Positions 18,043-41,814 of a stretch of 64,000 nt of DNA are shown here, piece by piece (positions within the stretch are counted from its first letter, which is position 1; each line of letters opens with the position of its first letter). The notes beneath the pieces are model-generated. The model was not told the DNA's origin and searched no databases. It saw nothing but the letters and a program-made list of their open reading frames with translations. Made by a program: the position numbers and the translations under genes. Source of the DNA: Polyangiaceae bacterium (GTDB lineage Bacteria; Myxococcota_A; Polyangia; Polyangiales; Polyangiaceae); contig WQZB01000009.1 of NCBI GenBank assembly GCA_009780955.1, forward strand, positions 1 through 64,000, written 5' to 3'.

Positions 18043-19260
18043 GTGGTAACTGTTCGTCTCAAGCCTGGTCACGTGCAGCCGGTGTGGGCCGGGCACCCTT
18101 GGGTGTACTCGCAAGCGATCGATCGCGTCGAAGGCAGCGCAACCCGCGGCGCTGAGGTCCGTGTCGTCGACCCGCGCGGCAACTTCCTTGGTCGCGGCTT
18201 CTATTCGCCGGGGTCTGCCATTCCCGTGCGCCTGCTCGTTCGCGATGAAACAACTGCGATCGACACGAATTTGTTTCGCGACCGGCTCGAGCGCGCGCTC
18301 GCGGCTCGCGCGGCGTTCGGCATCGGAACCTCCCCTGAGACAACGGGCTACCGCGTCGTGCATGCCGAAGGCGATGGCCTACCGGGTCTCATCGTCGATC
18401 GCGCGGGCGACGTGCTTAGCGTGCAGTTTCTCACCTATGGCATGAAGGAACGAGCAAGTATGGTCCTCGATGCACTCGAGCAAGTCATGCGCCCTCGTGC
18501 CATCGTCGATCGCACCCCGCTGAATGTGGCCAAGCTCGAAAACTTTACGGCCGCGCAGGGCGTCGTGCAGGGTGAGTCGATTTCTTCCCTGTCGTTTTCC
18601 GAGCGGGGCCTCGCCTACCGCATTCCGCTCGAATTAGGGCAAAAAACCGGTTTTTATTTTGATCAGCGCGATCTGCGTTGGCGCGTCGAGGCGCTTTCCA
18701 AAGGCAAGCGGGTGCTCGACGCCTACTCGTACGTCGGTTCGTTCGGGCTTGCGGCAGCACGCGGCGGCGCCACCGACGTAGTTTGCGTCGACGAAAGTGC
18801 GCCTGCCTTGGAAACGGGCGCCGAGTGCGCGCGCGCGAACGGGCTCGACGCCGTGATGCACTTCGAGCGCAGCGATGCGCGACGCATGATGCAAGATGCA
18901 CACGGTAGTTTCGACCTCGTGGTGGTGGACCCACCAAGGCTTGCGCCTTCGCGAGGCTCGCGTGAGCAGGCGCTTTTCATGTACGCTCGCCTGTCCGAGC
19001 TCGGCTGCCATGCCGTCAAGCCGGGAGGGCTGCTCATCATGTGTTCGTGCTCGGCAGCGGTCGACCTCACCGGTCTCACACGGGCACTCGCAACGGGTGC
19101 CGTGCGCGCAAACATGGACGCCATCGTGCTCGAGCGCGTTTTTCAAGGCATTGACCACCCGGTGCCTGCGGCCTTTGGCGAAGGGCTCTATTTGAAATCG
19201 CTGATTGCCCGCGTGTTGTCGCGCAGCAGTCATTCGTTCGCGCCGGCGGATCACGAATGA
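18043..19260 (+). CDS. RlmI-like class I SAM-dependent 23S rRNA (cytosine-C5) methyltransferase
   Basis: The 405-residue protein has an N-terminal PUA-like domain (VWAGHPWVYSQAI, RGAEVRVVDPRGNFLGRGFYS) and a Rossmann methyltransferase domain. Motifs visible are KTGFYFDQRDLR, VLDAYSYVGSFGLAAARGGA (SAM site), DLVVVDPPRLAPSR (NPPY-like motif IV) and GGLLIMCSCSA with the catalytic-type cysteines. This is the RlmI/YccW layout, modifying C1962 of 23S rRNA in E. coli. Its start is GTG. It overlaps the HAD gene by four bases (ATGA), suggesting coupled translation. Confidence 0.88.
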   Translation: MVTVRLKPGHVQPVWAGHPWVYSQAIDRVEGSATRGAEVRVVDPRGNFLGRGFYSPGSAIPVRLLVRDETTAIDTNLFRDRLERALAARAAFGIGTSPETTGYRVVHAEGDGLPGLIVDRAGDVLSVQFLTYGMKERASMVLDALEQVMRPRAIVDRTPLNVAKLENFTAAQGVVQGESISSLSFSERGLAYRIPLELGQKTGFYFDQRDLRWRVEALSKGKRVLDAYSYVGSFGLAAARGGATDVVCVDESAPALETGAECARANGLDAVMHFERSDARRMMQDAHGSFDLVVVDPPRLAPSRGSREQALFMYARLSELGCHAVKPGGLLIMCSCSAAVDLTGLTRALATGAVRANMDAIVLERVFQGIDHPVPAAFGEGLYLKSLIARVLSRSSHSFAPADHE

Positions 19261-20045
19261 GACCCTTGTCCACGATTCCGCCCGAGGTGCTCCGCAGCCT
19301 GCGCGGCGTGCTCTTCGATCTCGACGACACGGCTCTGTCGCACGGCGTGCTCACACGCGAGGCGTACGACGCGATTTGGTCGATGCATGATGCAGGGCTC
19401 GTGCTCGTTGCGGTCACCGGGCGCCCAAGCGGTTGGGGTGAGGTTATCGCGCGGCAATGGCCCGTTGACGGTGCCGTGACCGAAAATGGCGCGGTGCATG
19501 TCGTGCGTCATGGCGTGGGCGTCGACGTTCACGAAACCGGCACGCCCGAACAACTGGCAGAACGAAAAGAGCGCCTTCGGGCGCTCGTGGAGTCCGTCGC
19601 GCGTGCGGTGCCGCGTGCGCGTCTCGCCGATGACTCTTATGCCCGCAGGTCGGACGTGGCATGGGACATTGGCGAGCGTGATGCGCTCGATGGCGCCAGC
19701 ATTGCAGCGCTCGAGCGCGAAGTCATGTCGGCTGGCGCGCGCACCACGCGTTCGTCGGTGCACCTGCACGCCAGCTACGAGAGCGACGACAAGGCAACGG
19801 GAGCCGTGCGCTTTTTGCGCGAGCAGCTCGGCGAAGATCCTGGTCGAGCGCTCGGTCGCTATGCCTTCATTGGTGACAGCGGCAACGACGCACCTTGTTT
19901 TTCCGCCTTTCGTGTGACCTTTGGCGTTGCGAACGTGCGCGCGCATTTGCCACGGTTGCCCGTGCCTCCGCGCTGGGTTGCTTCGCGCGAGCGCGGCGCG
20001 GGCTTTGCCGAGATTGCACGCGTTCTTGTGGCTGCCCGCGGGTGA
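19257..20045 (+). CDS. HAD-superfamily phosphatase (Cof/MPGP type)
   Basis: The 262-residue protein shows HAD motif I (LFDLDDTALS, D21 and D23), motif II (VAVTGRPSG), a cap region, and motifs III/IV (SDDKATGAVRFL and FIGDSGNDAPCF). The type IIB cap arrangement fits Cof-like or mannosyl-3-phosphoglycerate phosphatases acting on sugar phosphates; the substrate cannot be read from sequence. The start ATG overlaps the stop of the methyltransferase gene, a pairing with no obvious functional logic. Confidence 0.85.
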   Translation: MRPLSTIPPEVLRSLRGVLFDLDDTALSHGVLTREAYDAIWSMHDAGLVLVAVTGRPSGWGEVIARQWPVDGAVTENGAVHVVRHGVGVDVHETGTPEQLAERKERLRALVESVARAVPRARLADDSYARRSDVAWDIGERDALDGASIAALEREVMSAGARTTRSSVHLHASYESDDKATGAVRFLREQLGEDPGRALGRYAFIGDSGNDAPCFSAFRVTFGVANVRAHLPRLPVPPRWVASRERGAGFAEIARVLVAARG

Positions 20046-20100: not shown

Positions 20101-21366
20101 ATGCAGTCGATGCAGTCGAATCAGTCTAAGAAAGCGGGCGCGACCGAGGAGCTTTTGGCGATTGCGGCGAAGCACGTTTACCCCAATAACAAGCCTGCGA
20201 AGATTGTGCTCGCGCGCGGGCAAGGCTCGCGCCTTTTCGACGTCGAGGGCCGCCGCTTTCTCGACCTTGCCGCTGGTGTGGCGGTTTGCTCGCTCGGTCA
20301 CGCGCACCCAAAGCTTACCGCAACGATTGCCGCGCAGGCTGGGCGGCTCATGCACGTGTCGAACTACTTCTACAACGAAGAAAACATCCTGCTTGCGAGC
20401 GAGCTTTGCGAGCTTTGCGAGAAAGAGGGCTTGACTCGCGCCCTGCTTTGCAACTCGGGCACCGAGGCCAACGAAGCCATGTTCAAGGCTGTTCGTCGCC
20501 ACTTTTACGTGAAAGGCGACAAGCGCTCGCGCATCATCTCCTTTCACAACTCGTTTCATGGTCGCACCATGGGCTCGTTGGCCATGACGGGTACGCCAAA
20601 GTACCGCGAAGGCTTCGGGCGCATCGAAGGCATCACGCATGTAACCTACGGCGATCTCGACGCGGTTGCCGCCGAAATGGGCAGCGACGTCGCCGCCGTG
20701 ATCGTCGAAGCCGTGCAAGGGGAGGGCGGCGTCATCCCTGCACCTTTAGGCTTTCTCGAAGGGTTACGTGCACTATGCAATCAGCATGGCGCTCTTCTTG
20801 TTTTCGACGAGGTGCAGACCGGCATTGGAAGGCTCGGGCGCTGGTTCGGGTTTCAGCGCTCGGGGAGCTTTGCCGGCGTTCGCCCCGACGCCATTTCGCT
20901 TGCAAAGGGGCTTGGTGGCGGGTTCCCCATTGGTGCCATGGTCACGAGCGAAGAGCTCGGCTCTGCGCTTCCTCCTGGCACACACGGCTCCACATTTGGC
21001 GGAAACCCACTTGCGTGCGCCGCGGCGCGCACCGTGCTTCGCGTGATGGAAGCAGAGGACATCGTGCCGAATGTCGAGCGCAAAGGGCAGCTTTTGTCCG
21101 CCATGCTCGCAAGGGTCGCTCGCGAACTGCCCAACGTGTGCGAAGGGCAGCGAGGCGAGGGTTTGCTTCGCGGTCTCATTCTTAGGCCTGGGTTTGTCGC
21201 GCGTGACATCCTGCCGAAGCTTGTTGACGCTGGCGTTTTGCTCCTCGCAGCAGGCGAGCGCGTTTTGCGCTTTGCACCTCCACTCATCATTACCGATGCC
21301 GAGCTCGAAGAGGGCGTGGCCATCGTCCGCAAAGTGCTCGAGGAACTCCCAGCACACAGCAGTTGA
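20101..21366 (+). CDS. argD: Acetylornithine/succinylornithine-type class III aminotransferase
   Basis: This PLP enzyme of arginine biosynthesis transfers the amino group of glutamate to N-acetylglutamate semialdehyde. The 421-residue protein is complete: FLDLAAGVAVCSLGH, LLCNSGTEANEAMFKAVR, SFHNSFHGRTMGSLAMTG, VIVEAVQGEGGV, LLVFDEVQTGIGR, SLAKGLGGG with the Schiff-base lysine at ~269, STFGGNPLACAAA and LLAAGERVLRFAPPL. Related class III aminotransferases (ornithine, 4-aminobutyrate) share most motifs, so specificity is likely but not certain. ATG codons at 20101 and 20110 are both possible. Confidence 0.88.
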   Translation: MQSMQSNQSKKAGATEELLAIAAKHVYPNNKPAKIVLARGQGSRLFDVEGRRFLDLAAGVAVCSLGHAHPKLTATIAAQAGRLMHVSNYFYNEENILLASELCELCEKEGLTRALLCNSGTEANEAMFKAVRRHFYVKGDKRSRIISFHNSFHGRTMGSLAMTGTPKYREGFGRIEGITHVTYGDLDAVAAEMGSDVAAVIVEAVQGEGGVIPAPLGFLEGLRALCNQHGALLVFDEVQTGIGRLGRWFGFQRSGSFAGVRPDAISLAKGLGGGFPIGAMVTSEELGSALPPGTHGSTFGGNPLACAAARTVLRVMEAEDIVPNVERKGQLLSAMLARVARELPNVCEGQRGEGLLRGLILRPGFVARDILPKLVDAGVLLLAAGERVLRFAPPLIITDAELEEGVAIVRKVLEELPAHSS

Positions 21367-21410
21367 CTTGCCCACGTCTGGTCGAATGCGAGATACGCGA
21401 GATACTTGGG

Positions 21411-23624
21411 ATGCCTGGCGTTGTGACATCGGAAGGAGACGGCGGATCCTCGTCATCGGGCTCGGTGTGCGCGGGTTGTGGCAAGCCTATCGACCCGCTG
21501 CGTGCTGGTCACGTTGCCATCGTTGACGGCACTTTTCGCTATTTCTGCAATGCGGCGTGCAAAGTTCTGTACGTCGAGGCAAGTCCACGTCGCGCAGCGT
21601 TCGACGCGATGACGGCCGAACCTCCTCCTGTTGCGCCAGTCTCACAGCCTATTGCGCCGATTGCGATGGCTGCCACAGGCCGTGCAACGCTGCCAGGCAT
21701 TGCACCGGAAGCCACGCCATCGCACGACGCGAGTGACGACGGCGACGACGAAGTTGTCACTCCGCCATGGGCGCAGGAACCAGTCGATTCCGTAGGGGAG
21801 CAGCATGCTGCGCCCCTACCTCGCGACGCAAACCAACAAAACGCATTCGTAGGGGCGCCATTCATGGCGCCCAACCACGGTATTTTGGAATCCGCACCCT
21901 TGGCCGATTCCGAGGGCGCGATGAATCGCGCCCCTGCGCCCCTACAACGCGCTCTTGGCATTGCACCCGCCATTGGCATTGGTGCGGGTATTGTGGCCGC
22001 GGCCGCGCCGCTTGCGGGGGAATTGGCCTCCAAGTTTTGCCTGCCGCTCGCCATGCTGGCTGCATTTGTCGTCGTCATGCGTGCTGGACTTCGCCCGCGC
22101 GATCCAAGCGAACCGTCGCCATGGATTGTGGCGGTGCCGGTGGCGATCGCGGCCATCACCGCAGCCACAACCTTCGCGATGGTGGGCCGTGTGCCCGCCG
22201 GAAAGGTCGATGCTTACGCCGCCTTTGTAGGGGTTGCTGCTGCTGCATCGCTTCTCGTTGACTTGGCTTTGGGCCGCGCGCGACGTGACGTCGAAGCCGC
22301 GCGCACACGCATGGCTCGCGCAACGTCCACGGGCACCGATCACGCGTGGGGCCGTCTTGCCAACGCGCAGAGCTCGCGTCTCGACGTTGCAGCCCCTCTG
22401 GTGGGGTTCATGCGGCGGGCAGTCGAGCTCGCAGTGCCCATTGCTGCTGTCATCGTTGCGGTGGCTGCCTATGCAACGAGCCGCGATGCGTGGCCTGAGG
22501 TGTGGCCTGACGTTGTCATCGCGGCATGTGCGGGAGCGTATGCGCTAGCCGCGGTGGCTGCTGCATCGGCTGCGGCTCTTGCGCATGCGCATGGTCACCT
22601 ATCTGCTCTGCGGAGAGGCATTGTTTATAAAGACGCGCAGGCCTTTGACGTTGCCGCTCGTGCCGACGTTGCCGTCATCTGTTCGCGTGGAACCGTTCTG
22701 CTCGGTGAGCCCGAGATTGTGACCGTCGAAGCGATCGGTGATATAGCGACCGACCGCGTTTTATCGCTTGCTGCCGGCACAGAAATGGCGTCGAACCCCG
22801 CAGCGTCCACCGCGATCCTCGGCGAAGCACGCGCGCGCGAAGTACGCCCAGAACACGTTCGCTCGGCCATCGTTTACGAAGGCCTTGGTGTTACCGCGCT
22901 CGCGCCCGATGGCGACAAAGTAATTGTGGGTAGCCGCGGCTTGCTCTTGCAAGAAAAGGTTAGTGTTGCCATTTTCGACGCACGCGTTACCGAGCTCGAG
23001 GCCGAAGGGCGCAGCGTGCTGCTCGTGGCACTTGGCGATCGTTCGATTGGTCTGCTCGCATTGCAAGACGGCCTTCGCCGCGGCGCACGCGCTGCCATCC
23101 AGAGGCTGCATGATGCAGGTATCGAGCCCGTGCTTCTCAGCGGCGAGGCGCGTGAGACATGCGAAACCATCGCGCGTGCGCTTGACATCGAGCATGTTCG
23201 ACCCGAGATCCTCCCGGCTGATCGCGGAGCCGAAGTGCGCGCTCTTGCTGACGGGGGCCACGTGGTTGCTGCGATTGGCCACGCATCGTCCGACGGTGGG
23301 GCGCTTGGTTCCGCCGACGTGCCCGTGGCCATGGGACAGGCGGGGCCTGTGCCTGGAGAGTGGAGCGTTGCTCTGGCGTCCGACGATGTCCGCGACGCGG
23401 CTCTCGCACTCACCGTGCCCCGTGCCTGCCGCGAACGCGCGCGCGTGATCGCCCTCGTCGGCGCCGGCGCACAGGCACTTTCGCTTTTTGGCATTGTCTT
23501 CGGCATTGCGCCGCCGGTCGTAGCGCCGGTCGTATCGGTGATCGCCGCGGTGATCGTGGTTGGGTTGGTGCGCGAACCTCCACACGCACCGGCGCCATCG
23601 CCTTTGCCGCCGTCGTCGGAGTAG
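21411..23624 (+). CDS. TRASH/YHS-domain protein with a catalytically degenerate P1B-ATPase scaffold
   Basis: From this ATG the product has ~737 residues (an in-frame TTG at 21363 overlaps the argD stop). It opens with a metal-binding TRASH/YHS motif (CAGCGKPIDP, then YFCNAACKVLY). A variable linker, membrane helices and a region that aligns by eye with copper P-type ATPases follow. CPCALGLATP is replaced by CAGAYALAAV. GIVYKDAQAFDVAARADVAVI keeps the approach to the phosphorylation site, but DKTGT reads CSRGT (~22678). The N-domain HP reads NP (SNPAAS), and GDGxND reads GHASSD (~23277). The actuator domain is missing or much reduced. It is therefore probably a non-pumping homologue, perhaps a metal sensor or assembly factor. 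Family A repeats are translated in the linker at 21792-21945. Confidence 0.72.
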   Translation: MPGVVTSEGDGGSSSSGSVCAGCGKPIDPLRAGHVAIVDGTFRYFCNAACKVLYVEASPRRAAFDAMTAEPPPVAPVSQPIAPIAMAATGRATLPGIAPEATPSHDASDDGDDEVVTPPWAQEPVDSVGEQHAAPLPRDANQQNAFVGAPFMAPNHGILESAPLADSEGAMNRAPAPLQRALGIAPAIGIGAGIVAAAAPLAGELASKFCLPLAMLAAFVVVMRAGLRPRDPSEPSPWIVAVPVAIAAITAATTFAMVGRVPAGKVDAYAAFVGVAAAASLLVDLALGRARRDVEAARTRMARATSTGTDHAWGRLANAQSSRLDVAAPLVGFMRRAVELAVPIAAVIVAVAAYATSRDAWPEVWPDVVIAACAGAYALAAVAAASAAALAHAHGHLSALRRGIVYKDAQAFDVAARADVAVICSRGTVLLGEPEIVTVEAIGDIATDRVLSLAAGTEMASNPAASTAILGEARAREVRPEHVRSAIVYEGLGVTALAPDGDKVIVGSRGLLLQEKVSVAIFDARVTELEAEGRSVLLVALGDRSIGLLALQDGLRRGARAAIQRLHDAGIEPVLLSGEARETCETIARALDIEHVRPEILPADRGAEVRALADGGHVVAAIGHASSDGGALGSADVPVAMGQAGPVPGEWSVALASDDVRDAALALTVPRACRERARVIALVGAGAQALSLFGIVFGIAPPVVAPVVSVIAAVIVVGLVREPPHAPAPSPLPPSSE
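21792..21819. repeat. Family A palindrome variant inside coding sequence
   Basis: This 28-bp inverted repeat has gtagggg and cgcccctac ends around an agcagcatgctg core. It has one mismatch between the arms, and its core differs from that of the other family A copies. It is read in frame in the linker of the P1B-ATPase-like protein. Confidence 0.8.
21849..21945. repeat. Family A composite element inside coding sequence
   Basis: This composite starts with gtaggggcg and ends with cgcccctac. It contains a left hairpin (gggcgccattcatggcgccc), a ~45-bp spacer with tattttggaatccg, and a right hairpin (gggcgcgatgaatcgcgccc). The same three-part composite is present at 40773-40876, outside a gene. 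Here the reading frame is open throughout and gives GAPFMAP, GILESAPLA and GAMNRAP in the protein linker. The length is such that the frame of the host gene is kept. Confidence 0.85.
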
Positions 23625-23877: not shown

Positions 23878-24450
23878 ATGGCCAAAGATCCACTTCGCTA
23901 CAAAGGCGACGAAACGAAATTGCGGGGCGGTGGCGTCTACGTGCGGGCCGAAGGGATCACACAAGACGACGTCGTCCTTGCAGTCAAACGCTTCTGGGCG
24001 TCGACGAAGGCAGCAGAAGAAGAGCCGGGCGACGCAGGCATATCCGGAGCCGATTTCAAGAGGCACGGCCTCCTTGGCGTCGCGATACTTCCCGCTGCGC
24101 CCGACGCCGATGGAAGCGACTGGATCGGCGTCTACGACACCGCTCCGTACTCGCACGAGGAGTGGCTCGACGATCTGTGTCGCGCCCTCAACGCTTACCT
24201 CGCCGTGCCGGTATTCTCGTTCTACATCGGGCCGAAGACGCGACTCGCCTCGCACGGTGAGAGCGGCTACGCCGGTCTAGCGAGAAAACCGACCCGTACG
24301 TGGGACAAGACGCTTCGCGCGGTCGACCGATTTCCTTACCCGTTCTTTGCGCCGGCAGATCCCGTCGAGGGTGTTGTCTGGCTTCGTTTTCGCATCGCCT
24401 CTGATGTTTTGCTTCGTAAGCTGGAGTTCGAGAAGGAATTCTGGCGATAG
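23878..24450 (+). CDS. Island protein, family X (immunity-like, unrecognised)
   Basis: This 190-residue soluble protein has no signal peptide and no family I can name. It is homologous to the N-terminal domain of the gene at 29116: GGGVYVRAEGITQDDVVLAVKRFW corresponds there to GGIYVASKHGVTRAKVVAEIKAFW, WIGVYDTAPY to WIAVYDSERY, and VPVFSFYI to VPVLHYEL. Two inverted partial copies of this gene occur at 28384-28452 and 30440-30640. Small, acidic, multi-copy proteins that stand without an enzyme signature are typical of immunity proteins to polymorphic toxins; that is inference here. Confidence 0.75.
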   Translation: MAKDPLRYKGDETKLRGGGVYVRAEGITQDDVVLAVKRFWASTKAAEEEPGDAGISGADFKRHGLLGVAILPAAPDADGSDWIGVYDTAPYSHEEWLDDLCRALNAYLAVPVFSFYIGPKTRLASHGESGYAGLARKPTRTWDKTLRAVDRFPYPFFAPADPVEGVVWLRFRIASDVLLRKLEFEKEFWR

Positions 24451-24495
24451 GGAGGCTAACGCAATCACGGGGCCTCCCCCTTTGGTACTTCTTTA

Positions 24496-25941
24496 TCAAA
24501 GTGCGAAATCGATCGCCGACATCCGCGTCCCCGCGGGTGCGATGAGCCACGCGAGCGCGCGATAGCGTTCGTGCGCGAGGCTCGCGACGCGATCGGCCTT
24601 CGCCGTCGAGGCGCTCGTCAAAGGCTTATTGGAGATCGCAAGATCTCCTCCCGCGAGCTCCGCGCCGAGCTCGAGCCCAGGGAGATCCTCGATCATTTTC
24701 GCGAGATCGACCGCGCGATCAGGATGCACCCTCCGCTCTTCCATCCTCCAATGGAGCGTGAGCTGCTCGCGGTAACGACGATGGATCTCCTCCTCCGATC
24801 GCAGCGACGCGGTCTCGAGGAGCGCATCTGCCGCCGGCGTTCCCAGGCCGAACGTCTTGAGGAGCGTCTTCTCAACGTCCATGTCTCGGATCTTCGCTTG
24901 AAGTTGCGGTAGCCGCACACGATCCAGCGCCCACCCCAGCATAATGGCGGCTTCGATCGACCATGAGCGGTCGATACACTCCGGCGTCATCGACGACTGG
25001 AGCGGCTCCGCGAAGAGCGCCGCTTCACGCTCATCGAGCTCCTCTTCGATCCCGCGCTCGCGCAGCCACAGCCGCATCGCCGCGACCTCCTTCTGCGTCT
25101 TCTCATACTGGTCTGACAGAATGAGCGCACGTTGCCCCGGTAGACTCGCGCGCCATGACACCGCCGCGAGCGCGAGCGCCCGCGCTGCGACACGTCGCGG
25201 CGAGTGATGAACGACCCGGGGCGACGCCGCGAGCTCGGCGAGCCGCGTGCGCAAGAGCAGAGTGGGATGCTCCTCCGGAGGGCACGCCATGATCTCCGCA
25301 AACGGAGCTTCTTTCAGGAGCGAAGTGAGATCCGGATCGGCCGCGATCTTGGCGAGGTCATGCCCATAGCGGGCCGCGCCTCGGAGCGCATGGAGCGCGC
25401 CCGCTCTGTCACCGAGCTCCGCGAAGACGCAGAGCGCGTTGTGAAACGCTGTTGGGTTGAACCTCGCGTTGGGCAGACAGTAGCGAAGATACCTCCGGGC
25501 TCGGTCCGCATCGACGCCGAGTTTGTGGATGGCGTTTTGAACCGTGTAGAGCGCATTCACATAGGTTGAATCCTCTTCGAGGTGAGGCACCGTGATGAGG
25601 TCGTCGAAGAGCCGGAGGGAGTCGGCGTGTCGGCCTTGTTCGTTCCACTTCCACGTGAGCTGCAACGCTTGATAGTTGACGCTCTCAGTCCCCCATAACT
25701 CCCATGTTGCGCGGTCGAAGAGGAGCCGGCGTTCGCTGGGCTCGAGCGACATGAGGGTCTGCACGTGCGCCTTTTTCTTCGCGCGCATGGTGCTGACCGC
25801 GCTTTGTGGGAGCTCGCCCTCCGCCTCTTCCAACGCGATCGCCGCACGCACCGAGGCCACGTCGCTCCAGTCGACGTGCATGTCCTTCATCTTGCGGAGT
25901 TCGCTGGGCTTCTGCTCGCCGTCGTCGCGTTCGTTTGTCAT
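24496..25941 (-). CDS. TPR-like plus DUF4272-like island protein
   Basis: The 481-residue soluble protein has an N-terminal half of helical repeats (SLRLFDDLITVPHLEEDS, AFHNALCVFAELGDRAGALHAL). Its C-terminal half resembles DUF4272: IDRSWSIEAAIMLGWALDRV, ASLRSEEEIHRRYREQLTLHW, and ERYRALAWLIAP near the end. The helical half is homologous to the C-terminal part of the frameshifted gene at 29116 (LGDTDRALEHVRAAVRCGY there, LGDRAGALHALRGAARYGH here). DUF4272 proteins are often found beside toxin/immunity genes. It is convergent with the gene at 23878, 45 bp apart. Confidence 0.75.
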   Translation of the reverse strand: MTNERDDGEQKPSELRKMKDMHVDWSDVASVRAAIALEEAEGELPQSAVSTMRAKKKAHVQTLMSLEPSERRLLFDRATWELWGTESVNYQALQLTWKWNEQGRHADSLRLFDDLITVPHLEEDSTYVNALYTVQNAIHKLGVDADRARRYLRYCLPNARFNPTAFHNALCVFAELGDRAGALHALRGAARYGHDLAKIAADPDLTSLLKEAPFAEIMACPPEEHPTLLLRTRLAELAASPRVVHHSPRRVAARALALAAVSWRASLPGQRALILSDQYEKTQKEVAAMRLWLRERGIEEELDEREAALFAEPLQSSMTPECIDRSWSIEAAIMLGWALDRVRLPQLQAKIRDMDVEKTLLKTFGLGTPAADALLETASLRSEEEIHRRYREQLTLHWRMEERRVHPDRAVDLAKMIEDLPGLELGAELAGGDLAISNKPLTSASTAKADRVASLAHERYRALAWLIAPAGTRMSAIDFAL

Positions 25942-26021
25942 TGGAGCGAAAACATACCCCAGCTTAGTGGCTGTCCTTGCGCCGCTGCGCTGCTCGGCAT
26001 GGCGCTCTGGTGAAGCCTAAA

Positions 26022-26215
26022 AAGTTTCCCAGACGATCGTTCGAAGCTTCCCAGATGAGAATGAAGCTTCCTAGACCAAAAATTTGCCGAGAAATACGCT
26101 CTTTCAAGATTGGGGCGGCCAGGCGCTGGTTTCGAGATCGAAAATTTAGGCCAAAATCTGACGCGGGAGACTTGGCGACCAATCCGGGAAGCTTCGTGGC
26201 CGTCCGTGAAACTTC
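26022..26215 (+). repeat. Element C, copy 1 (~190 bp)
   Basis: This stretch is the near reverse complement of 27590-27785. Shared landmarks in order are gaagcttccc.gatga, gaagcttcct, aaaatttg.cgagaaa.acgc, a GGCCGGGCGC/GGCCAGGCGC block, tttcgaga.cgaaaatttagg, ccaaaatc, gggaga, and gggaagcttcgtggcc. It holds several copies of the short motif gaagcttcc. It lies upstream of the DUF4272-like gene and downstream of the gene at 26296, in a 350-bp space with no gene. The base composition (runs of aaatttt) differs from neighbouring coding DNA. Confidence 0.85.
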
Positions 26216-27226: not shown

Positions 27227-27595
27227 TTGAAGGTGGTGGTTCCCCCGGCCCCGATCGAAAAATCGGGGTGCAATCCCAAAAATGCCTCTGGCGAGATCGA
27301 GGTCACGGCCTATACGAACGTCGAAGGCACAGTCACCCAAGTCGGAGTCCACCCCTCTCTGTCGAGCATTTCTCGGAGCATCACGCCTACGGCCGACGGC
27401 ACATTTGTCCCAGTTGGGGTCTACCCTGGTATGCTTAAAAGCAGCGCGATCTCAAACTGTCTCGAGAAGACCCTGAGCGCATGGACCTTCGGTGATCGCG
27501 TCTACGGATCGGCGACCCAGCGGCTCCATTTTCGTCCGCGGTCGGCCAAGACCCCGCAAATCCCGCGAAAACAGACACTCCCTAAGCTTCTCTGA
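27227..27595 (+). CDS. Possible fragment of an AgmX/TonB-like secreted protein
   Basis: A 122-codon open frame contains SGEIEVTAYTNVEGTVTQVGV, a Cys (SNCLEKTLSAWTFG), and an otherwise non-matching C-terminus that runs into element C. In myxobacterial AgmX/PglI-type C-terminal domains a G-x-hydrophobic beta strand, a V-x-x-C segment and a final W/F-x-F occur in this order, so this may be the remnant of such a domain. It lacks a signal peptide and a ribosome site, so I treat it as a doubtful or broken gene. Confidence 0.3.
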   Translation: MKVVVPPAPIEKSGCNPKNASGEIEVTAYTNVEGTVTQVGVHPSLSSISRSITPTADGTFVPVGVYPGMLKSSAISNCLEKTLSAWTFGDRVYGSATQRLHFRPRSAKTPQIPRKQTLPKLL

Positions 27596-27785
27596 TGGCC
27601 ACGAAGCTTCCCTGATGGGTCACCACGTCTCCCTGACTGGATTTTGGCCTAAATTTTCGTTCTCGAAACCCGCGCCCGGCCATTCCAACCTCGAAAGTGC
27701 GTCTTTCTCGACAAATTTTCGATCCAAGAAGCTTCCTTCTCATCGGGGAAGTTTCGAAGATCATCAGGGAAGCTTCACAACAGAA
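27590..27785 (-). repeat. Element C, copy 2 (inverted relative to copy 1)
   Basis: This is the reverse-complement partner of 26022-26215. It also carries gaagcttcc/ggaagcttc motifs at both ends and internally, some in the form cttccctgatg. It ends 20 bp before the ATG of the Uma2 gene, so any promoter for that gene must lie inside it. The two copies enclose ~1.37 kb. Confidence 0.85.
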
Positions 27786-27804
27786 CCTGTCATAAACTCG
27801 ATGC

Positions 27805-28380
27805 ATGGGCGAACCAGCGAAGAGGCTACGCAGCGACGCGGAACTCTGGGCCGAGCTCGAAGCGTTGCCGTTGAATCTCAAGGGTGAGATCATCGATAGC
27901 GAACTGCACGTGATGCCGCGACCGCGACCGCGTCACACGTGGACTACCACCATGCTCGGTCAGCATATCGGTGGTCCATTCAATGCCGATAACGATGGCC
28001 CTGGCGGCTGGATCATCCTTGTGGAACCTGGCATCGAGCTGCCTTCCGCGCCCGAAGTTGCGCCCGACGTTGCGGGCTGGCGCCGCGAACGTTTCGCCTG
28101 GCCAGAGGGCAACGAACCCCTTCGCATCGTGCCCGACTGGGTTTGCGAAGTGCTCTCGCCATCGAACGCAGTTTATGATCGCCGCATCAAGTTTCCTTTT
28201 TACGCACGCATCGGGGTGTCGTGGCTGTGGGTGGTCGAACCTCGCGATCGGACCGTCGAAGTCCGCAAGCGCGAGACCGATCGCTGGAGCGTGCTCGCCA
28301 CTTTTGCGGGCGACGAGGCGATGCGCGCCGAGCCATTCGACGCGATCGAGATCCCGCTCGGCCGCCTGTGGGCGGGTTGA
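27805..28380 (+). CDS. Uma2-family putative PD-(D/E)xK endonuclease
   Basis: The 191-residue protein matches the Uma2 (DUF820) family of small restriction-endonuclease-fold proteins. It shows LKGEIIDSELHVMPRPRPRH at the N-terminus, LVEPGIEL, EVAPDVAGWRRER (the PD motif), PDWVCEVLSPSN (ExL), and YDRRIKFPFYARIGVSWLWVVEP (K plus the family-typical Y-G-V-x-x-x-W). The family is widely spread in multiple copies in cyanobacteria and Myxococcota, and its biological role is still unclear. Codon use looks like the surrounding chromosome. Confidence 0.88.
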   Translation: MGEPAKRLRSDAELWAELEALPLNLKGEIIDSELHVMPRPRPRHTWTTTMLGQHIGGPFNADNDGPGGWIILVEPGIELPSAPEVAPDVAGWRRERFAWPEGNEPLRIVPDWVCEVLSPSNAVYDRRIKFPFYARIGVSWLWVVEPRDRTVEVRKRETDRWSVLATFAGDEAMRAEPFDAIEIPLGRLWAG

Positions 28381-28383
28381 TGG

Positions 28384-28452
28384 GTCGGTTTTCTCGCTAG
28401 ACCGGCGTGGCCGCTCTCGCCGTACGAGACGAATCGCGTCTTCGGCCCGATG
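28384..28452 (-). pseudogene. Inverted fragment of the family X gene
   Basis: About 69 bases match the reverse complement of 24224-24294 in the gene at 23878, including the stretch that encodes SGYAGLARKP. It sits immediately after the stop of the Uma2 gene. No reading frame remains. Confidence 0.8.
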
Positions 28453-40772: not shown

Positions 40773-40876
40773 GTAGGGGCGCCATTCATGGCGCCCAAAT
40801 TCATGGCGCCCGACCGCAGCATTTTGGAATCCGTACCATTGGCCAATACCAAGGGCGCGATGAATCGCGCCCCTAC
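40773..40876. repeat. Family A composite element
   Basis: This has the same three-part structure as the copy in the gene at 21411: a left hairpin with gggcgccattcatggcgccc (followed here by a partial duplication of atggcgccc), a spacer with cattttggaatccgtacc, and a right hairpin gggcgcgatgaatcgcgccc ending in ctac. The frame giving GAPFMAP, SILESVPLA and GAMNRAP stays open although no gene lies here. The terminal ctac supplies the TAG stop of the DHH gene on the minus strand. Confidence 0.88.
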
Positions 40877-41814
40877 CCAATGCCATCAATTTCCGATCGC
40901 GGCACGCCCAGGCGCATTAGCACTTCGACCAGCCGTGATTTCTGAACCGACACGAGGGTTGGCATTCCACCAGAAAGCCCGAGCAACTCGAGAAAATGGA
41001 TGTTGCTATCGAAAGGGGCTGCAAGCGTCATCGTGTCGCCATCGATCACGATGGCAACGCTGGCGCGCTCTTGGCCAATAAGAAGAAGCATGGTTTTGTC
41101 ATACCGAGTGGAGTACATTTTTCGCGGCTCGGTCACGTCGACGAAAGCCACGGACGTGCACGCCGGCAAACATGGCTTTGCAATGTCGATGCGCCGGTAG
41201 CCGCGCGCCAAGTCCATGGTGACGCGCTCGATGGCATGGAGCTCGGCGCCCGCTTCGTCGATGGGCACCCAAAGCGATTTTTCGGCCAGACCCGCCGCGA
41301 GATGGCGAACCACGATGCCGAGCAGCCCGGTGTCGCGCGGGCGCGCGCGAATCGCACGGTCGAAGCGACGCGCAATGGCCGACGGCGTGCCCAAGCGCGT
41401 GTCGATGGCGCGCGCGTCGTTGTCCGCGCCAGGGTAAGGCTCGCGGCCTTCACGTAGCCATTTCGCTGCACTGCAAAGCCCGTCGAAATCGGTGTGACAC
41501 ACGATGGTGTCAACGAGGCCGACGCGCGCGCAGAGCTCTTCGGAAATCATTTCAGGACAAGCGCCGTGCTCGGCTTTCGTCGTGAGAACGAAGCGCGGAT
41601 CGTGATTGTATTGCGCATGCATTGCATGGTCGTGATGATCGACCCACGCCGCAAGGCGGACGCCAAGGCCATCGATGAAGGGTTTCGTGATCTTTTCGAA
41701 CCCGCCGCCCGAGGCTTCCGACGCGAAGGCCACATCGAGCACGACGACGCGGCCATGGATCGAAGCTGCCTTCGGAAGCTTCCTCGGAGTGACGAAGGCG
41801 AGCTGGGCGCGCAT
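40873..41814 (-). CDS. DHH-superfamily-like phosphoesterase with unusual motif order
   Basis: In this 313-residue protein VVVLDVAF (motif II type) and AAWVDHHDHAM (the DHH motif, Asp59-His60-His61) come first, while the usual first motif appears later as IVCHTDFDGLCSA. In RecJ, NrnA and exopolyphosphatase-type enzymes the HxDxDG motif precedes DHH. A C-terminal part (SVAFVDVTEPRKMYSTRYDKTMLLLIG, HFLELLGLSGGMP) may be the DHHA1-like substrate domain. It could hydrolyse small phosphodiesters or nanoRNA, but the permuted order needs checking. Its TAG stop is part of a family A element. Confidence 0.65.
   Translation of the reverse strand: MRAQLAFVTPRKLPKAASIHGRVVVLDVAFASEASGGGFEKITKPFIDGLGVRLAAWVDHHDHAMHAQYNHDPRFVLTTKAEHGACPEMISEELCARVGLVDTIVCHTDFDGLCSAAKWLREGREPYPGADNDARAIDTRLGTPSAIARRFDRAIRARPRDTGLLGIVVRHLAAGLAEKSLWVPIDEAGAELHAIERVTMDLARGYRRIDIAKPCLPACTSVAFVDVTEPRKMYSTRYDKTMLLLIGQERASVAIVIDGDTMTLAAPFDSNIHFLELLGLSGGMPTLVSVQKSRLVEVLMRLGVPRSEIDGIG

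Follow-up and report, generated by a model that had tools for sequence, protein, structure and literature searches.

A TRASH-headed P1B-type ATPase family without catalytic residues in one order of Myxococcota, often encoded beside arginine-biosynthesis genes

The phosphorylated aspartate is the defining feature of P-type ATPases. Here we describe a gene whose product keeps the body of such a pump without this residue. It lies on contig WQZB01000009.1 of a Polyangiaceae bacterium (assembly GCA_009780955.1), within positions 1 to 64,000, a stretch referred to as the window, and encodes a TRASH-headed P1B-type pseudo-ATPase at 21411–23624 of the forward strand. The CopA-type P1B-1 copper ATPases (TIGR01511, TIGR01525) share with its family the helix order, the fold of the P and N domains, the position of the N-terminal metal-binding domain and, in most members, the A (actuator) domain. 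However, the family lacks the phosphorylated Asp, TGE, GDGxND and CPC, and its N-terminal domain is TRASH, not HMA. The same kind of head precedes the P1B body in YHS/TRASH-headed bacterial P1B ATPases, for example in Rhizobium, but these are annotated as pumps (PMC4626032). In Mycobacterium phlei, the YHS/TRASH domain of an adenylyl cyclase switches the attached effector by means of copper and so makes the cyclase copper-dependent (PMC4626032). The pseudo-ATPase may work in an analogous way on a different effector, one with no known activity. Bacterial pseudokinases and the non-catalytic PcrP also keep an enzyme fold for a non-catalytic role but have no membrane pump body (PMC12599244, PMC12632274). 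In the open-licence papers searched, we found no description of such a family, nor of any pseudoenzyme family among P-type ATPases.

The open reading frame (ORF) at 21363–23624 is uninterrupted, without stop codon or frameshift. Translation from the ATG at 21411 gives 737 residues, and from the TTG at 21363 it gives 753. By alignment the ATG is the more likely start codon, because the protein of the closest relative (genome G010, 76% identical across the shared core) starts at the matching residue, with MARVVTEEGD there and MPGVVTSEGD in the window protein. Residues 319–733 carry the P1B homology (NCBIfam TIGR01525, E 2e-41; PDB CopA entries 3rfu and 3a1e, E 1e-25), although the scores of the window protein and of the Sorangium members fall far short of the curated TIGR01511 and TIGR01525 cut-offs. 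An earlier, sequence-only reading of this gene had proposed a P1B scaffold with its catalytic motifs replaced, and the open frame and the profile and PDB matches bear this out. DKTGT reads CSRGT at residues 440–444 (22680–22694), with loss of the phosphorylation site, and GDGxND reads GHASSD at residues 639–644 (23277–23294), both as proposed. The CPC and HP motifs are also changed, but they had been placed incorrectly: the suggested ‘CAG’ at residues 389–391 is misaligned, the CPC columns being A396-A397-V398 (22548–22556), and the suggested ‘NP’ is one residue off. The N-domain HP columns are P479-A480 (22797–22802), so both HP residues are lost in the window copy.

Residues were counted in 82 distinct family members and 45 intact P1B homologues. 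All 45 intact homologues, but none of the 82 members, have the phosphorylated Asp and the Lys of DKTGT, the TGE Glu and the first Asp of GDGxND. Since the same losses recur in every member, those of the window protein are not due to chance. At the DKTGT motif, the Asp position holds Cys in 62 members and Ser in 9, the Lys position Ala or Ser in 62, and the Thr position Arg in 69 and His in 10. Ala takes the place of the TGE Glu in 64 of the 82, and a conserved P-domain Lys is Arg in 73. At GDGxND, the first Asp is replaced by His (37) or Arg (31), and the last Asp is kept in 80. The CPC metal site is gone, its first Cys remaining in a single member and its second Cys not appearing among the listed residues; the window protein reads AAV. 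Of the N-domain residues, the acidic one (Glu) is found in 68 members, the His in 55 and the Pro in 68; the two GxG glycines are found in 81 and 82, and a third Gly in all 82. These glycines are retained across the family, whereas the window copy lacks both HP residues. The pattern suggests that in most members the active site has shifted from an acidic, Mg-binding one to a basic one, with the adenine side better kept than the phosphate side. It is very unlikely that these genes encode a phosphorylating pump, and pumping itself has very likely been lost.

The overall architecture is predicted to remain that of a P1B pump. AlphaFold models of a Sorangium member and of the window protein, with predicted local distance difference test (pLDDT) scores of 86.7 and 83.2, contain eight membrane helices together with the P and N domains. 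Their best PDB matches are the CopA E1 state 7r0g, with a target template modelling (TM) score of 0.67–0.70, and 3a1d, the CopA P/N domains with ADP-Mg, with a TM score of 0.91–0.92 and a root-mean-square deviation (rmsd) of 1.9–2.3 Å. In the window protein, the modelled helices MA, MB, M1 and M2, which match CopA, lie at 21936–22322, M3–M4 at 22395–22613 and M5–M6 at 23388–23570. The strongly conserved cytosolic P and N domains lie at 22620–23375 and match 3a1d with a TM score of 0.92 and an rmsd of 1.9 Å. The A domain is the sole part absent from this model. Pfam PF00702 and PF00122 were matched in all 47 relatives scanned. The models indicate that the P-type ATPase fold is kept as a pseudoenzyme, with an eight-helix P1B membrane part, a HAD P domain and an inserted N domain, and the structural comparison that the sequence-only reading had called for gave a clear similarity to CopA.

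The family was found only in one order of Myxococcota, comprising Polyangiaceae, Sandaracinaceae and their relatives. Most of the 58 related genomes searched, many of which are metagenome-assembled genomes (MAGs), hold close relatives of the window protein. The extracted proteins fall into two clean groups: one lacks DKTGT, TGE and GDGxND throughout, and the other, made up of intact P1B pumps from these genomes, has DKTGT and GDGxND without exception. A scan of 84,980 species genomes, built on a 12-row alignment, added Sorangium cellulosum, Polyangium fumosum, Minicystis rosea, Labilithrix, Sandaracinus and other Myxococcota MAGs; DKTGT is absent from every family member found, and the matches beyond Myxococcota are intact pumps. 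In a single-protein search of a phylum sample, a gap in score separates the family (E < 1e-55, all in the one order, apart from a divergent member in genome G021) from the best outside matches (E 1e-42), and all ten of the outside or lower-scoring matches that were read are intact pumps. Neither the relatives nor the phylum sample nor the 84,980 genomes yielded an orthologue with intact motifs, and the outside matches read are clearly separate intact P1B pumps. In a quick IQ-TREE run, one branch splits 39 family members from 35 intact homologues, with an approximate likelihood-ratio (SH-aLRT) support of 99. Intact homologues of the same order with FCxxxC heads (L094, L096) keep DKTGT and GDGxND and sit among the intact rows of the tree.

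Selection on these genes remains strong, and its focus has moved. The Nei-Gojobori ratio of nonsynonymous to synonymous substitution (dN/dS) against congeners is 0.11–0.13 for the P/N part, 0.15–0.2 for the membrane part and 0.16–0.25 for the whole gene, values that are rough because dS is near saturation. Pairwise identity within the family is 0.52 in P/N, 0.46 in TRASH, 0.42 in A and 0.26–0.36 in the membrane helices. In the intact homologues, P/N stands at 0.47 and the helices at 0.42–0.61, with M3–M6 best conserved (0.57–0.61); the family and the intact set are not equally broad, and for this reason it is the relation of one part to another that can be interpreted. By this ratio, the ion path has been released from constraint and the cytosolic headpiece has not: conservation has moved from the membrane helices to the headpiece. 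That a large, old and strongly constrained family lacks both the phosphorylated Asp and the ion path suggests that the body of a pump can take on a different role, much as kinases have given rise to pseudokinases. Automatic annotation may label these genes as heavy-metal pumps, because they match those models, and copper resistance in myxobacteria may be miscounted in consequence.

At the N-terminus, a TRASH/eL24-like head (21462–21572) carries the pattern CxxCGKPIDPLRAG...FRYFCxxxC. Its cysteines C36, C39, C62 and C66 are kept in 75, 75, 74 and 74 of the 76 members that cover the head. The best PDB profile match of the head is to eL24, although weak (E 0.008), and its matches to the Pfam TRASH and DUF7576 models are weak and below their cut-offs. 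The four cysteines of eL24 bind Cd (PMC4626032). The head probably binds metal. A further profile match, to the lysine-biosynthesis protein 5k2m (E 0.15, over ten residues), was dismissed as a chance match to CPxCG. The part of the sequence-only reading that saw a pseudo-transporter maintained with a TRASH head for metal binding is supported by the order-wide family, the one-sided branch, the purifying selection and the kept cysteines.

We propose the following course of events. In the ancestor of the order, a heavy-metal pump would have lost the residues for phosphorylation, dephosphorylation, Mg binding and metal binding in the membrane. What this ancestral pseudo-pump retained would have been its eight membrane helices, the headpiece of P and N domains and the four-cysteine N-terminal TRASH domain. 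The TRASH head would bind a transition metal, and the cleft between the N and P domains, with most adenine-pocket residues retained, would bind a nucleotide without hydrolysing it. The combined metal and nucleotide state might then be relayed via the conserved surface of the headpiece to a partner protein, which could plausibly be an enzyme or a regulator of the arginine genes encoded alongside. Nucleotide binding by the intact members is slightly more likely than not. The best explanation as a whole is that the protein is a pseudo-ATPase serving as a metal-binding, perhaps nucleotide-binding, membrane sensor, regulator or scaffold with a plausible link to arginine, a proposal that we hold with about even confidence.

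The link to arginine comes from the gene neighbourhood, which was read at family loci with the neighbours located by tblastn and the identities of argD, argF, argH and lysA backed by NCBIfam. In the window, an argD-like acetylornithine transaminase (20101–21366, forward strand; Pfam Aminotran_3, 6.9e-108; TIGR00707 above cut-off) lies directly upstream, 44 nt from the ATG. Further upstream on the same strand are two conserved neighbours, an RlmI-type RNA methyltransferase (18043–19260) and a HAD-type phosphatase-like gene called mpgP (19257–20045), which has no NCBIfam match. Most close relatives share this layout of rlmI, the HAD phosphatase-like gene, argD and then the pseudo-ATPase. A same-strand argD, argF or argH occurs within 400 nt in 55 of the 65 distinct loci with enough flank, and others have a divergent argH-lysA pair adjoining. 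The start codon of the pseudo-ATPase overlaps the end of argF in several genera (ATGNNTGA), an arrangement suggestive of translational coupling. Outgroups that lack the gene carry argD-argF and argH-lysA as two distinct pairs, placed on different contigs. The pseudo-ATPase follows argD-argF in G027; in G045 and G053 it sits at argH-lysA, while argD-argF is elsewhere without it. The gene has thus remained beside arginine genes in two different places, whether through relocation or as a legacy of an ancestral cluster in which both pairs were joined. This position is what suggests that the protein acts on arginine metabolism, a role that we put forward tentatively. The tight tie to argD, argF and argH makes a connection of amino-acid synthesis with metal state directly testable. 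The fuller picture, in which a P-type ATPase was recast as a metal-gated, nucleotide-binding receptor that acts from the membrane as a controller or scaffold of arginine biosynthesis, became fixed a single time in the order's ancestor and was kept at two arginine loci, is rather unlikely as a whole.

Several observations weigh against this explanation. Nucleotide binding may not be general, because 27 of the 82 members, among them the window protein, lack the N-domain His, and the A domain is missing from the window copy. Genomes of the order without a visible copy are G022, G185 and G126, and possibly the fragmented G041. Moreover, the arginine linkage is broken while the gene is kept in L053, L057, L066, L068, L070 and L099, and the linkage may be an inherited position only. 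The strongest competing explanation takes up this last point: the protein would have a general membrane or metal function, as in our proposal save for the arginine target, and the arginine neighbourhood would be just an inherited address. This is a serious contender, a little behind the proposal itself. It is favoured by the loss of linkage in about 8–10 of the 65 loci that keep the gene, and by the rlmI-adjacent members L053 and L057, which resemble the window layout minus argD. The use of two arginine loci (argD-argF and argH-lysA), each on a contig of its own in the outgroups, and the tight coupling to argF in several genera argue the other way.

Two further features of the neighbourhood were noticed. 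In at least 16 loci (L049, L050, L054, L119, L126, L128 and others), a same-strand gene for a Fur-family regulator starts no more than about 200 nt downstream; the one in Sorangium is convergent. The pseudo-ATPase and the Fur-family gene might form a metal-regulated unit. In the argH-lysA layout (L072, L101, L104, L107, L069), an apparent secreted L,D-transpeptidase-like gene, YkuD-like by eye and with no NCBIfam match, often stands upstream of the pseudo-ATPase.

A less probable alternative is that the protein is a partner or dominant regulator of intact P1B pumps in a hetero-oligomer, or that it serves to buffer or deliver copper, and we consider this unlikely. The fold and the TRASH head would suit such a role, and intact P1B pumps are encoded in the same genomes (in that of the window, G000:C33). 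However, the membrane helices, where packing against a pump would be expected, are the least conserved structured part. No copper operon context was seen at the loci examined, which hold arginine genes and not copper genes, many with a Fur-family regulator nearby. The copper-specific role suggested by the sequence-only reading, as a sensor, buffer or assembly factor, does not find support in these neighbourhoods.

It is very unlikely that the protein is a new enzyme with a remodelled HAD site, centred on the Cys and Arg that C(A/S)RGT supplies and on the His or Arg of GHxxxD. The frequent Cys or Ser at the nucleophile position, the Arg or His at the Thr position in 79 of 82 members and the His or Arg at the Mg-binding Asp position in 68 would fit such a site. 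However, 11 members have neither Cys nor Ser at the nucleophile position, and the replacement of the P-domain Lys by Arg speaks against it as well. It also counts against this idea that we know of no Cys-dependent HAD enzyme.

The remaining alternatives are highly improbable. A transporter or leak channel that is driven by something other than phosphorylation would fit the eight predicted membrane helices, as in CopA, but CPC and other conserved polar membrane positions are now small or hydrophobic and variable, in helices that are poorly conserved. For the family as a whole, a pseudogene is ruled out by the order-wide recurrence and the dN/dS values. The same low probability applies to the window copy being a true pseudogene on its way out. 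This copy does lack the A domain and both HP residues, and its linker contains a dispersed repeat, yet its frame is open, its catalytic losses are those of all 82 members across the order, and the P/N and membrane parts are under the constraint described above. The dN of the P/N part to the outgroup L040 is 0.152 for the window copy and 0.137 for its sister L039; being about equally far from the outgroup, the window copy shows no clear acceleration.

The missing actuator domain with its TGE, which the sequence-only reading had also reported, is confirmed by the genus alignment and the DNA junction at 22317–22322. About 82 residues have been lost in frame, at about position 22320 as predicted from the assembly. 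Every relative that covers the region has the A domain, except the divergent member of genome G036. This extremely diverged, TRASH-headed member (L225, 6804–8936, reverse strand) has no recognisable P motif or A domain and lies immediately upstream of argH-lysA.

The disordered linker of the window protein contains a palindromic dispersed repeat of about 87 bp (21849–21935), which is read through in frame. This palindrome (GTAGGGGCGCCATTCATGGCGCCC...GGGCGCGATGAATCGCGCCCCTAC) forms a strong hairpin and has about 40 copies in its own genome, 80–93% identical, with a further copy in the window at 40773–40889. Dispersed matches to residues 155–197 were considered as paralogues and rejected, since they are this repeat. 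Downstream of the pseudo-ATPase, the ORF translations of about 24188–24550 (reverse strand) and 28200–28450 (forward strand) share GSVFSLDRR..R..R..ASSARCR, and those of 25977–26150 and 27590–27890 share KICRE.R.F..G...R.FR.RKFRPKS...GSFVA.RE. These shared stretches suggest further dispersed repeats.

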